DNA of 45,032 bases from Nitrospirota bacterium. Lineage in GTDB: Bacteria > Nitrospirota > Thermodesulfovibrionia > Thermodesulfovibrionales > Magnetobacteriaceae. The notes below the pieces were generated by a model. The model saw nothing but the letters and a program-made list of their open reading frames with translations, was not told the DNA's origin and searched no databases. The DNA lies in NCBI GenBank assembly GCA_015233015.1, contig JADFYO010000025.1, positions 1 to 45,032 on the forward strand. The letters are read 5' to 3'. Positions within the stretch are counted from its first letter, which is position 1, and every line of letters begins with the position of its first letter. A program made the translations under genes and the position numbers. Shown here piece after piece: positions 29,737 through 34,765 of this stretch.

Positions 29737-29809
29737 TCGCCCTGCAAATCTTTGCTATTTAGTTATCTTTGTGTTACACTATAGTTACTCAAGGGAGGGC
29801 AGAAACAGT

Positions 29810-32782
29810 ATGTCCCCAAGAATCATCGGAACAAAAGATGCACAACCTGATTGCCCGATTATCTCGGAGTCCGCAACATATTTATTTAAGACCATCTCCA
29901 ACATTGCCTCTGTTTTTATCTTTTGCATCGGCATTTTTGTCGTTGCCGGCTGGTCGTATAGCGTTGACGCCTTAAAGACGCTTTATTTCAGTCCTGTAGA
30001 GATGAAGTTCAACGCTGCCGCTGCAACTGCCTTATTGGGGTTATCATTGTGGTTTGCACATACAAAAAGAGCCTCCAGCCGGACGCGGCTTATTTCTAAG
30101 TCATGTGCATTGATAGCTGCTTTCATAGGCGCTCTTACATTGATTGAATATTTTTTTAATCTGGATATCGGGATTGATCAGGCGTTGTTTGTGGATATAC
30201 CTGACACGGCTATAACTTCAAATGCGGGCAGGATGGCTCCTTTTTCGGCAGTAGAATTCGTGCTGCTTGGAGTTGCGTTGTTTCTGATAGATGTCGAAGT
30301 GCCCAGGGGATTCAGACCATCGCAATTTATCATAATTCCGGCAAGCCTGATTGCCTTAACATCTACTTTCGGTTATGTTTATGGTTTTGCACCATTGAAC
30401 AGGCCATCCTTCTATAATGCCATGGCATTTCACACGGCAATAGCTTTTTTAATGGCATCCATCGGAATTCTTACCGCGCGTCCTGACAAAGGAATAATGA
30501 CTTTTCTTGTTAAAGACAACCTCGGCAGCGTAATAGCGCGCCGTCTCTTAATTGCCCTGGCTATAACTCCGTTGTTGATAGATGCAATACTTGTCTCAGG
30601 CCAACTTGCAGGCCTTTACGACATCAACCATACGTCGGCGATTGACGATGTGCTTTTAACGCTTATTATAATCGGCATAATTGTACACACGTCCAGATAT
30701 ATAAACAAACTCGACGATATGCGAAAAAAGGCCGAAAATGAACTGGAAAGTCAGGCCAGGTTCCCCAGAGACAATCCATTCCCGGTTATACGTATTGACA
30801 GGAACCTTAACGTTACCTATATAAATGCGGCAAGCAAACCACTGCTTACCAATTTGGGATTTCAAGACAATGGCGATAGTTTGACTGCCGCAAAAGATAA
30901 GTGGCATGATTTAATCATCGGCGTGTTAGACTCCAGACAGGTGAAAAGTATGGAAATACCCATAAACGAAAGGGTGTTTCACTTTACCATCGCACCTATA
31001 CTTGGCGAGAACTATGTTAATCTATACGGTTACGACATTACTAAGCGTAAGTCGATGGAAAAGGCACTTGATTACGAAAAAAACAGACTGCAAAACATAA
31101 TGGACAGTATGCAGGACGGCATCTATATCGTAAGTCGTGAGCATAAAATAGAATACGCAAATCCTGTAGTCGTTAATGAGTTTGGCCCATACGAAGATAT
31201 AAAGTGCTTCTCATATTTCCACGGCATTAATGGACCGTGTCCGTGGTGCAAGAATGATGTGGTGTTTCAGGGAGAGAGTGTGCACTGGGAATTTACCCTG
31301 CTTAAGACAGGCAAGACCTACGATATCATTGATACACCTTTAACAAATCAGGACGGCAGCATTTCTAAACTGGAGATATTCAGGGATATAACTAACAGGA
31401 AGAAGATGGAAAATGATTTACGGCTCTTTTCAAAGGCGATAGAAGAGACTATTGACAACGTGCATATTATTGATATGTCAGGGAAGATAATCTACGCCAA
31501 TAAGGCCGCCGCTAAAATGACCGGCTATTCCACCGGGGAAGCCCTTGGCATGGATGTGGTTAATTTGGTACAGGACAGGCATTTTGCGGCAAATGTGATA
31601 ATACCTACTATCTATGTCAAAGGATACTGGGATGGGGAAATTTTATGCGTGAGGAAAGACGGTACGCTTTATCACGCGTGGCTGGCAGCAAACCTGTTTA
31701 ATGATAAAGACGATAAGCCTATTGCTATGATTGGAACGTTGCGCGACATAACATCGAGAAAAGAGATTGAGGAGGCGTATCGTCTGGCTGAGGCAAACAT
31801 GAGGGCGCTTATGAACGCTATCACTGAAAGTGTCTGCCTCATCGATAGAGAAGGTGTATTTATCACTGTCAACGATACATTCGCAAAACGCTTCAGCACA
31901 GGGACCCAAAAAGAGGCCGGAGATATTGTTGGAACAAATTTCAGGGATATTTTAGAGCCGGATGTCTTTGAAACAAAGAAGGGATACCTTGATGAGGTGA
32001 TAAGCACCGGGTTGCCGGTGACGTTCGAAAATACCCGCGGCGAATCTTTATGTCTGACAAACATGTATCCTGTTTTCGGCGACGACCACAAGGTCAGCGG
32101 CGTAGCCATATACGCCAGCGACATCACACTTCGTAAGAAATATGAAACTTACCTGTTAACTTCTATCAGGGAAAAAGAGATACTCATGCGGGAAATCCAT
32201 CACCGAGTCAAGAACAATCTGCAAATAGTCGCCGGACTTATCGGACTTCAGCTCAATAACATTACAGATGAGACATATAAGGCTATGTTTACAGAAACAA
32301 GGAACAGGATAAAATCTATCGCCTTGGTTCACGACAAACTCTATCGCTCAAAAGGCCTTGCCGAGGTAGATTTTAAGAAATACATATCGGAGCTATCGAG
32401 CGAACTGTTCAGCTCTTTCGGCGTTGACAAAAAGTGTATTACGTTAGTCCTTGACATGGAAGATATCATAATCGACGTAGATATTGCCGTTCCATGCGGA
32501 TTGATTATAAATGAACTCTTTACCAATATCTTAAAGTACGCCTTCCCCAATAAAATGCTCGGCGAAATCAACATCTCTGTTCACTCCGATAACGAGGGCA
32601 AATTCGAGATAATAATATCTGACAACGGCGCCGGTTTCCCTGAAAACATTGACTTCAGAAATACAAAAAGTCTGGGACTGCACATAGTGAACATACTTGT
32701 AAAGCAAATCGGAGGGACTATCGAATTAGACAAGACCCGTGGAAGCAAGTTCACTATTAAATTTGAAAACACAATAAAATGA
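29810..32782 (+). CDS. Membrane multi-PAS sensor histidine kinase, HisKA_2 type
   Basis: The protein has 990 residues from ATG 29810 (GGGAGGG upstream). The first ~290 residues hold a polytopic membrane sensor of about seven or eight helices. Four PAS-like domains follow, at about 310-410, 425-540, 545-670 and 675-790. The second carries a Cys cluster (KCFSYFHGINGPCPWCKN) that could bind metal or respond to redox state. The kinase has the HisKA_2 phospho-acceptor EIHHRVKNNLQIVAGL and an ATPase domain with INELFTNILKYAF (N box), ISDNGAGFPE and KSLGLHIVNIL. The neighbouring REC-GGDEF protein, 18 bases downstream, is the likely partner. Confidence 0.93.
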   Translation: MSPRIIGTKDAQPDCPIISESATYLFKTISNIASVFIFCIGIFVVAGWSYSVDALKTLYFSPVEMKFNAAAATALLGLSLWFAHTKRASSRTRLISKSCALIAAFIGALTLIEYFFNLDIGIDQALFVDIPDTAITSNAGRMAPFSAVEFVLLGVALFLIDVEVPRGFRPSQFIIIPASLIALTSTFGYVYGFAPLNRPSFYNAMAFHTAIAFLMASIGILTARPDKGIMTFLVKDNLGSVIARRLLIALAITPLLIDAILVSGQLAGLYDINHTSAIDDVLLTLIIIGIIVHTSRYINKLDDMRKKAENELESQARFPRDNPFPVIRIDRNLNVTYINAASKPLLTNLGFQDNGDSLTAAKDKWHDLIIGVLDSRQVKSMEIPINERVFHFTIAPILGENYVNLYGYDITKRKSMEKALDYEKNRLQNIMDSMQDGIYIVSREHKIEYANPVVVNEFGPYEDIKCFSYFHGINGPCPWCKNDVVFQGESVHWEFTLLKTGKTYDIIDTPLTNQDGSISKLEIFRDITNRKKMENDLRLFSKAIEETIDNVHIIDMSGKIIYANKAAAKMTGYSTGEALGMDVVNLVQDRHFAANVIIPTIYVKGYWDGEILCVRKDGTLYHAWLAANLFNDKDDKPIAMIGTLRDITSRKEIEEAYRLAEANMRALMNAITESVCLIDREGVFITVNDTFAKRFSTGTQKEAGDIVGTNFRDILEPDVFETKKGYLDEVISTGLPVTFENTRGESLCLTNMYPVFGDDHKVSGVAIYASDITLRKKYETYLLTSIREKEILMREIHHRVKNNLQIVAGLIGLQLNNITDETYKAMFTETRNRIKSIALVHDKLYRSKGLAEVDFKKYISELSSELFSSFGVDKKCITLVLDMEDIIIDVDIAVPCGLIINELFTNILKYAFPNKMLGEINISVHSDNEGKFEIIISDNGAGFPENIDFRNTKSLGLHIVNILVKQIGGTIELDKTRGSKFTIKFENTIK

Positions 32783-32800: not shown

Positions 32801-34108
32801 ATGGATAAAACACGAATTATGATAGTAGAGGACGAGGGGATAAGCAGCGCATATATACAGGATACCCTGGAGCATCTGGGATATATCGTCACATCGGTAG
32901 CGTCATCGGCTAAAGAGGCCATAGAGCAGGCTGAGAAGGAAAGGCCTGAGCTTATCCTCATGGATATACAAATCAAAGGGGCAATGGACGGCATAGACAC
33001 TGCGAATGAAATCCGAATACGGTTTAATATCCCTGTTGTTTACCTCACCGCCCACTCAGATGAAGGTACATTGGAACGGGCAAAGATAACAGAGCCTTTT
33101 GGTTATGTAATGAAACCAGTTGACAGCAAAGACCTGAAAACCTGCATTGAAATAGCCCTGTATAAAAATAAGATGGAAAACAGGCTGAAAGAGCTGGCTC
33201 ATTATGATTTCCTGACCGGCCTTCCCAACCGCACACTGTTTTTTGACCGGTTAGACCAGGCCCTGAAACAGGCAAAACGCACTAACAGGGATGTTGCATT
33301 GCTTGAGATAGACCTTGACGGATTTAAATGTATTAATGACCGGATGGGGCACGACGCTGGGGATGCGGTATTAATAGAGATAGCGAAGAGATTAAAATGC
33401 CAGATACGCGGTTCGGACACCGTATCGCGTTTTGGCGGTGACGAATTCATGATTATCCTTACAAACCTCTCCGAAGCGGGAGATGCAGAGACGCTTGCCT
33501 TAAAGATAATCGTAGCAATAGGGAAGCCGTTTCATTTTAACACGCCGCATTGCGCCGTAGGCGCCAGCATAGGGATTAGTTTTTACCCACAGGATGGATA
33601 TGACGCGGAGACACTGCTGAAAAAAGCAGACGCCGCTATGTATCGTGCAAAGGAAGACGGTAAGAATACTTATCAATTATTCCATGACGTACACAAAAGA
33701 GCAAACCGGGATACAAAGGCAGTGCTCTCTCTGTCGTTAATATTTGTCTCGCAGCGCAAGGATGGCTGGGTACACAGCGATTGGCTTGAGTTTCTGATAA
33801 GTCTGAAAGAAAAGGGATTTTTTGTTTCAAAGACAATTGAGCCATACATCGGCGCAATCATCGAGACACTAAGAAAATTCTTCCTGCTGCCGCCACCCCC
33901 AACTGGAAAGATGGAGGAAATCCTTTCCCTGATTTGCGATGAAATCGCAGATTTTATTGTGAGCAATAACGGCATTTGGACAATACAGGAGTGGGAGGAA
34001 TTTTTGAGCAATATTAAGCTAAAGGGAATTGCACTGAATAAAAAAGAGACGTTACTGTTCTACGATTTAATTGACGCAACGAAGTCTCTGCATATTTTAT
34101 GCTGTTGA
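32801..34108 (+). CDS. Response regulator REC-GGDEF with a duplicated C-terminal motif
   Basis: The protein has 435 residues. REC spans ~1-125 with MIVEDEG, the phospho-acceptor Asp in ILMDIQIKGAMDG, TAHSD and the Lys of GYVMKPVD. GGDEF spans ~135-295 with DFLTGLPNR, an intact RFGGDEF site and an RGSD I-site just before it, so it should make cyclic di-GMP and be product-inhibited. The last ~135 residues are an unnamed domain. It contains two related units, GWVHSDWLEFLISLKEKG and IWTIQEWEEFLSNIKLKG, each followed by helices. It is 18 bases from the kinase gene and probably co-transcribed. Confidence 0.93.
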   Translation: MDKTRIMIVEDEGISSAYIQDTLEHLGYIVTSVASSAKEAIEQAEKERPELILMDIQIKGAMDGIDTANEIRIRFNIPVVYLTAHSDEGTLERAKITEPFGYVMKPVDSKDLKTCIEIALYKNKMENRLKELAHYDFLTGLPNRTLFFDRLDQALKQAKRTNRDVALLEIDLDGFKCINDRMGHDAGDAVLIEIAKRLKCQIRGSDTVSRFGGDEFMIILTNLSEAGDAETLALKIIVAIGKPFHFNTPHCAVGASIGISFYPQDGYDAETLLKKADAAMYRAKEDGKNTYQLFHDVHKRANRDTKAVLSLSLIFVSQRKDGWVHSDWLEFLISLKEKGFFVSKTIEPYIGAIIETLRKFFLLPPPPTGKMEEILSLICDEIADFIVSNNGIWTIQEWEEFLSNIKLKGIALNKKETLLFYDLIDATKSLHILCC

Positions 34109-34150
34109 GTAACAGCATTTTAAGATAAATTGCGACATAAGGAGGTTACA

Positions 34151-34765
34151 ATGCGTGACTGTAATAGTGATAAAATATCTTACTGTGTATCGATAAACGA
34201 CGATGACGTCTTTGAGGCAATGAAGGCCATAGACGGTTATCTTGACATAACACCGGAGGATTTCAAACAAGTTTATCTGGCAGCATATAAACATGCCATC
34301 GGCAGGGTAACACAATCTGTAACAGTCAAAGAAGTAATGACAACCGATGTGGTCTATGTGAAGCCGGATACGCCGCTTACGGAAGTGGCAGGGAGACTTT
34401 CTGAAAAATCAATATCAGGGTTGCCGGTAGTTGACAATAGCGGTCATCTGGCCGGGGTTATATCGGAGAAGGATTTTCTTTCGCACATGGGAGCAGGCCA
34501 TGCCCTGACGTTTATGGAGGTAGTCGCTCATTCTTTAAACGACACGGCCTGCGGCATCATGAAGATTAAAGACCTTGCCGCAAGAGACATAATGACGGCA
34601 CCGGCGGTGTGTATCAGTGAAAACGCCTCTATACACGAGGCTGTTTCCCTTTTTATATCCAGAAAAATTAACAGGATACCCGCGCTTTCTGCAGATGGGA
34701 AACTATCTGGAATAATCACCCGCGGCGATATTCTGAGAGCCCCGATGTTTCAGATAAATGTTTAG
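34151..34765 (+). CDS. CBS-domain pair protein
   Basis: The protein has 204 residues. After a ~55-residue N-terminal segment, two CBS domains follow: VKEVMTTDVVYVKPDTPLTEVA ... SGLPVVDNSGHLAGVISEKDFL and IKDLAARDIMTAPAVCISENASIHEA ... NRIPALSADGKLSGIITRGDILR. Such pairs bind adenine nucleotides and act as energy or signal sensors. No catalytic domain is attached. The ATG has AAGGAGG upstream, so I start here rather than at 34130. The context is the signalling island, suggesting a ligand-binding accessory. Confidence 0.9.
   Translation: MRDCNSDKISYCVSINDDDVFEAMKAIDGYLDITPEDFKQVYLAAYKHAIGRVTQSVTVKEVMTTDVVYVKPDTPLTEVAGRLSEKSISGLPVVDNSGHLAGVISEKDFLSHMGAGHALTFMEVVAHSLNDTACGIMKIKDLAARDIMTAPAVCISENASIHEAVSLFISRKINRIPALSADGKLSGIITRGDILRAPMFQINV

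Follow-up and report, generated by a model that had tools for sequence, protein, structure and literature searches.

What is the region that follows the catalytic domain of a diguanylate cyclase in the family Magnetobacteriaceae, and what might it do? The window analyzed here is the whole of a 45,032-nucleotide stretch of DNA from a Nitrospirota bacterium (assembly GCA_015233015.1, contig JADFYO010000025.1). It encodes a protein in which a receiver (REC) domain and a GGDEF domain are followed, from about residue 295, by a tail that a preliminary description regarded as a duplicated domain without a name. The stretch 33690-34108 corresponds to residues 297-435 and the stop codon of the open reading frame 32801-34108 on the forward strand. 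The features relevant to this question are as follows.

29771-32782, forward strand: PAS/HisKA_2-HATPase sensor histidine kinase (Pfam PF07568, PF02518, PAS)
32801-34108, forward strand: REC-GGDEF-unit-unit protein, 435 amino acids (ORF; Pfam domains)
32816-33148, forward strand: receiver domain, residues 6-116 (PF00072, E 2.8e-23)
33197-33667, forward strand: GGDEF domain, residues 133-289 (PF00990, E 1.2e-49)
33407-33448, forward strand: RGSD-x5-GGDEF, residues 203-216, RxxD pattern and intact GGDEF motif (pattern search)
33722-33892, forward strand: unit 1, residues 308-364, three predicted helices (unit HMM; AlphaFold)
33893-33931, forward strand: linker of 13 residues joining units 1 and 2 (unit HMM limits)
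33932-34102, forward strand: unit 2, residues 378-434, three predicted helices (unit HMM; AlphaFold)
34130-34765, forward strand: CBS-pair protein, directly downstream of the REC-GGDEF gene (PF00571)

Layout and gene context of the cyclase

Both Pfam domains exceed their gathering scores (82.6 bits against a cut-off of 30.2 for PF00072, 168.7 bits against 23.8 for PF00990), and the Asp, Thr, and Lys positions of the receiver are present as judged by eye. The RxxD pattern is presumably the inhibitory site for c-di-GMP. The protein ends no more than two residues past unit 2, and no lysine-rich or basic H1-like tail was seen when its sequence was read. The histidine kinase gene ends 18 bases upstream of the REC-GGDEF gene; judging from this position, the two would probably form a two-component pair, with the kinase as input partner and the REC-GGDEF protein as output. 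Downstream, the CBS-pair gene is followed on the same strand by genes for a receiver-PAS-HisKA_2 kinase and a receiver-GAF protein. Similar surroundings recur elsewhere, with relatives of the upstream kinase found at most 6 kb from nine fused-protein loci in eight genomes, and relatives of the CBS-pair protein near six fused-protein loci (window included in both counts).

Two copies of one three-helix unit

The preliminary description had seen a pattern, W-x3-[DE]-W-x-E-F-L-x3-K-x-KG, shared by two parts of the tail. Both units match it exactly, 70 residues apart, starting at W323 in unit 1 (WVHSDWLEFLISLKEKG) and W393 in unit 2 (WTIQEWEEFLSNIKLKG). The 57 residues of the unit follow a consensus centered on FV..KG.WDH..W..FL....KG....E...LG..LE..K.LY; the unit HMM scans the very proteins on which it was trained. 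The two halves were compared through cross-half profile searches, which are only semi-independent because the halves were cut with this HMM. A profile of the N-halves of 66 small proteins found the C-halves of 32 of 33 fused proteins, with that of the window at E 9.8e-8. The reverse test succeeded in 33/33 (E 6.1e-11), and the N-halves of fused proteins likewise found the fused C-halves in 33/33 cases (E 3.3e-9). The best E values among 660 shuffled sequences in the three tests were 0.5, 0.73, and 0.05. When N-half and C-half were compared profile to profile, the probability was 99.6 and the E value 7e-24.

The AlphaFold model of the window tail, based on 30 sequences, is confident (mean pLDDT 90.8, pTM 0.86) and contains six helices, three per unit. 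They span residues 301-318, 325-337, and 347-362, then 371-388, 395-407, and 414-434, with the same three-helix register appearing twice at an offset of about 70. A stand-alone protein of Ca. Magnetobacterium casense was predicted to have the same 3+3 helices (pLDDT 87.4, pTM 0.81). The proposed duplication is thus upheld both by profile and by predicted helix register. Taken together, sequence comparison and modeling confirm that the tail of the window protein consists of two copies of one unnamed, predicted three-helix unit, and that the duplication is more than chance.

Searches for a known family or fold

No named domain was matched in the searched libraries, in agreement with the preliminary description. 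Against Pfam, the best match of the tail alone was DUF6730, at 13.8 bits against a cut-off of 27, with nothing above cut-off; NCBIfam, PHROGs, and PADLOC returned 0 families at the limits used. None of the other unit members passed a curated cut-off in Pfam or NCBIfam, and their best matches in PADLOC (E 0.01) and PHROGs (E 0.043) were both weak. Nothing convincing was found among PDB sequences, the best being a designed helical repeat (E 0.029) and a Rop variant (E 0.047). Kinship with PPR proteins was considered and rejected: PPR chains of the PDB matched one Lentisphaerae unit at E 3e-6, over only 18 residues and with no stretch passing alone, and the match is therefore taken as chance among repeats. 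A mobile-element reading was also rejected on the basis of the plasmid and viral-contig collections, there being no plasmid match and only a 13-residue match to one viral-contig ORF (E 0.009), which was discarded.

Structural searches gave one lead. Foldseek found nothing at E ≤ 0.001 for the window tail or the second model. The top VIA row for the window tail was 1n81 (Pfg27), with Z 10.3, rmsd 3.1, and 133 aligned residues at 6% identity, though VIA cautions that unrelated helical models can score as high. Its other rows, comprising nuclear-receptor ligand domains and a cyanophage protein at Z up to 6.4, fall within what VIA classes as common arrangements. For the second model, 1n81 was not among the rows listed, the best of which reached 6.7. 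Likewise, in a profile search with E up to 10, 1n81 was not among the six PDB sequences listed. We regard the resemblance to Pfg27, which depends on a predicted model, as a structural lead only and not as kinship.

PMC searches found no published description of the unit in literature on cyclases, GGDEF proteins, and c-di-GMP in Magnetobacteriaceae or magnetotactic Nitrospirota. The sole passage returned for Magnetobacterium and diguanylate cyclase concerns phosphorus genes of another bacterium. Likewise, the literature on histone-like or lysine-rich proteins of Hydrogenedentes concerns other proteins, among the matches listed.

Distribution across genomes

The unit occurs in small proteins, GGDEF proteins, and a kinase of the family, and in proteins of two distant phyla. 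Nine unit genes are present in the genome of the window, six of them encoding stand-alone pairs. Eight, including that of the window, have E values no higher than 1.2e-6, one of them through two half-matches; the ninth, at E 0.068, was confirmed by profile at 6.4e-20. Among 60 genomes, all 19 of the Magnetobacteriaceae (own included) carry the unit, with 3-13 matches each, and the 41 genomes from 12 other families of the order carry none. Profile searches of overlapping class and phylum sets found it in 19 of 230 class genomes and 13 of 395 phylum genomes, every match falling within the Magnetobacteriaceae; the remaining 211 genomes of the class set gave none. The carrier genomes are tied to Ca. 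Magnetominusculus, the genus to which the window belongs, and to Magnetobacterium, Magnetomicrobium, and Magnetocorallium.

A scan of named genomes returned 35 loci, of which 31 are of the Magnetobacteriaceae kind. The four outside loci, one each from Hydrogenedentota, Lentisphaerae, Victivallis, and Kiritimatiellota, encode a single unit each. In the phylum of the Hydrogenedentota record, the unit profile matches 50 of 68 genomes, with one copy in 49 of these 50; in that of the Lentisphaerae record, it matches 29 of 337 genomes. Profiles of the Hydrogenedentota and Lentisphaerae-type groups match the N-half profile of the family at E 2e-26 and 1e-18, respectively. The distribution of the unit is patchy and covers at least three phyla; the wider phyla were reached via two short peptide patterns, and further phyla are possible. 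One Lentisphaerae genome contains eight single-unit matches (L209, L211-L217), perhaps a second expansion.

Architectures and charge

We collected 121 family proteins from the 19 genomes by combining the family search with the own genome, merging half-matches on one gene, and leaving out weaker extra members. Architecture labels were assigned by script and ORF starts are mechanical. The view of the unit as a domain of cyclase tails holds in that it is unnamed and duplicated, but not in the sense of being specific to cyclases: 83 of the 121 proteins are small (81 two-unit, two one-unit), 37 are of GGDEF type, and the remaining one is a histidine kinase that bears a unit at its N-terminus. The GGDEF-type proteins include 21 with a receiver and two units, seven other GGDEF proteins with two units, four with one unit, and five receiver proteins with an altered motif. 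Among the short entries, at least two (G001_C106, G018_C317) sit where their contigs stop and are perhaps truncated fused proteins; G001_C106 is tallied as small here and as fused in the tree described below.

RxxD is kept in all 32 fused proteins whose motif the script recognized, and the distance from the first residue of the YxAK motif to the unit is 23-31 residues. In the genome of the window, the tail is present at three of 26 GGDEF places. Five REC-GGDEF-unit-unit proteins (L059, L061, L064, L066, L087) read GDDEF or GEDEF and keep the unit pair; the pair accordingly does more than serve catalysis. These five belong to the paralogue clade of L040; the relative in the genome of the window keeps GGDEF.

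Charge was counted in the 20 best-scoring proteins per outside phylum for which loci were fetched, with mechanical ORF starts. All 20 proteins read from Hydrogenedentota have a basic C-terminal tail of 11-47 residues with a net charge of +4 to +23. Nine of the 20 read from the Lentisphaerae-type phylum start with a stretch whose net charge is +7 or higher. Basic tails also occur in 12 of 82 small family proteins. The unit cores are mostly near neutral or acidic, averaging a net charge of -2.5 per pair in the family. Two proteins of the genome with the most copies (L155 and L158 of G012) combine a single unit with a basic stretch and a further, unnamed region at the C-terminus, and resemble the Hydrogenedentota form.

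Evolutionary history

All C units of the family (112/112) group in a single clade with support 0.95 in a 267-leaf tree of units, where the Hydrogenedentota (19/20) and Lentisphaerae-type (15/15 used) sequences also fall into clades of their own. No clean clade emerges for the N units: 113 are in a group of 134 leaves at a support of 0.51. A tree of two-unit proteins places 33 of 34 fused proteins inside a clade of 35 (support 0.875); it leaves out the four one-unit GGDEF proteins and the kinase, and further fusions or unit losses are possible. The simplest account suggested by these sequence relationships is that a single unit was duplicated once before the family diversified, fused to GGDEF essentially once, and then multiplied.

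Gene neighborhoods

Comparison of the family loci found no gene neighbor common to all stand-alone unit genes. The unit genes of the other phyla have few neighbors in common, and this pattern fits a general structural role. One stand-alone subgroup lies with an amidohydrolase-like gene and a gene for a 114-130 amino acid protein at 15 loci (L041 included) in 14 genomes, and another has a small lipoprotein-like ORF nearby in 10 genomes (names by eye). At L041, L069, and L073, a stand-alone unit gene lies near an SDR gene, and in L041 the unit gene comes about 1 kb after it. This SDR gene resembles the one that adjoins phaC at L205 and L206, outside the family.

Among the 40 loci of single-unit relatives, just two gene clusters are seen at four loci or more. 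One, seen at five loci, lies 77-4196 bases away on the opposite strand. The other, an oxidoreductase-like gene (by eye), lies on the same strand, 79-127 bases off, in four of the 20 Hydrogenedentota loci (L256, L257, L260, L261). An operon reading for the single-unit relatives was rejected, as recurrence in four and five loci is too little for a general link.

Possible function of the unit pair

We consider the chances about even that the paired three-helix unit is a protein-docking and oligomerization module. The upstream histidine kinase would phosphorylate the receiver of the REC-GGDEF protein, and its GGDEF domain would make c-di-GMP. The C-terminal pair would anchor the cyclase to whatever partner or assembly the stand-alone paired proteins use, and c-di-GMP synthesis would in consequence be local or pre-assembled. 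In Hydrogenedentota, and in roughly half of the proteins read from the Lentisphaerae-type phylum, one unit carries a basic, histone-H1-like tail or head; in these forms the unit would link such tails to one another or to a partner. Since the enzyme-fused, kinase-fused, stand-alone, and basic-tailed forms all share the compact unit, docking and oligomerization fit all four; no sign of catalysis was seen in the unit. The earlier proposal that the tail binds a target or controls dimerization of the cyclase is plausible. Against docking, the conserved residues may be only the hydrophobic core, and ligands or nucleic acids, too, are bound by some small helical domains. In addition, with subgroups having conserved neighbors of their own, the stand-alone genes may have several separate roles and not share an assembly.

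Two alternatives account for part of the collected forms. If the pair acted in cis, sensing a ligand or setting the geometry of the cyclase dimer, its position close behind the GGDEF domain could transmit a constraint. However, most collected copies are without an enzyme and one unit is N-terminal on a kinase; as the stand-alone and basic-tailed copies lack an enzyme, cis regulation fits only the fused forms and seems quite unlikely. It is unlikely, though somewhat less so, that the units bind DNA or RNA, or help to do so, and bring the cyclase to the nucleoid or to RNA. The basic tails and N-terminal stretches speak for this, as does the best VIA match of the window tail, given that Pfg27 forms oligomeric complexes through RNA binding according to a review (PMC11173270). 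Yet the core of the unit has a near-neutral or acidic charge and the window protein is without a basic tail, while the Pfg27 match is absent from the rows listed for the second model, has no counterpart in sequence, and has a Z value that unrelated helical models can also attain. Direct nucleic-acid binding fits the tailed forms, not the tail-less pairs.

It is very unlikely, in our estimation, that the unit is a phasin-like module on the surface of a polyhydroxyalkanoate granule or other inclusion, with the cyclase tethered to granules. The unit proteins are small, multi-copy, and helical, and some have basic tails as in PhaF (PMC3574117). Partial PhaC_N matches, covering the last third of the model, occur in 18 of the 19 genomes of the family, compared with 7 of 157 others in the order, but this link is confounded by a single clade. 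PhaC_N is found in 0/79 unit-bearing genomes of the other two phyla, which weakens a role at such granules. Moreover, phasin models are absent among the Pfam hits of the tail and other members, and no unit gene is present at E below 0.01 in 10 family phaC loci. All ten of these loci that were read (L195-L204) have a run of genes for a protein of about 143 amino acids, one of about 350-370 amino acids, which we take to be PhaE-like, and a PhaC of about 370 amino acids. The protein of about 143 amino acids has no clear kinship with the unit: its weak unit score (E 0.013 upward) was not upheld by profile comparison, which aligned 15-17 columns at a probability of 34 or less.

Returning to docking and oligomerization, a fuller scenario can be outlined, although it is rather improbable as a whole. 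The Magnetobacteriaceae would have taken a single-unit protein of the sort that in Hydrogenedentota bears H1-like basic tails, duplicated its unit once, multiplied it into several paralogues per genome, and fused it to cyclases and a kinase, thereby recruiting c-di-GMP signaling proteins to a home-made scaffold, possibly located on the nucleoid or on some other polyanionic surface. Irrespective of function, a domain missing from the searched libraries is now defined by a clear profile, a confident model, and a likely order of events. Should docking prove correct, it would show how uncultured magnetotactic Nitrospirota place their c-di-GMP enzymes, and the unit would become a tag for finding the rest of the assembly.

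Comparison with known systems

PhaF-type phasins and H1-like proteins combine a small helical part with a Lys/Ala/Pro tail, as do some relatives of the unit, and PhaF is described as having a long amphipathic helix (PMC3574117). In contrast, the unit is predicted to be a compact three-helix structure, and the window protein lacks a basic tail. The model of the window tail also aligns, over 133 residues, with the all-helical chain of Pfg27 from Plasmodium falciparum (1n81), the structure of which is a tandem of pseudo-dyad-related helical repeats. In its enzymatic part, the window protein is most readily likened to response-regulator diguanylate cyclases of what we take to be the PleD/WspR type, with which it shares the receiver and GGDEF domains, RxxD, and an adjoining histidine kinase gene. 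We know of no cyclase of this type with a C-terminal pair of an unnamed domain; the window protein carries one.
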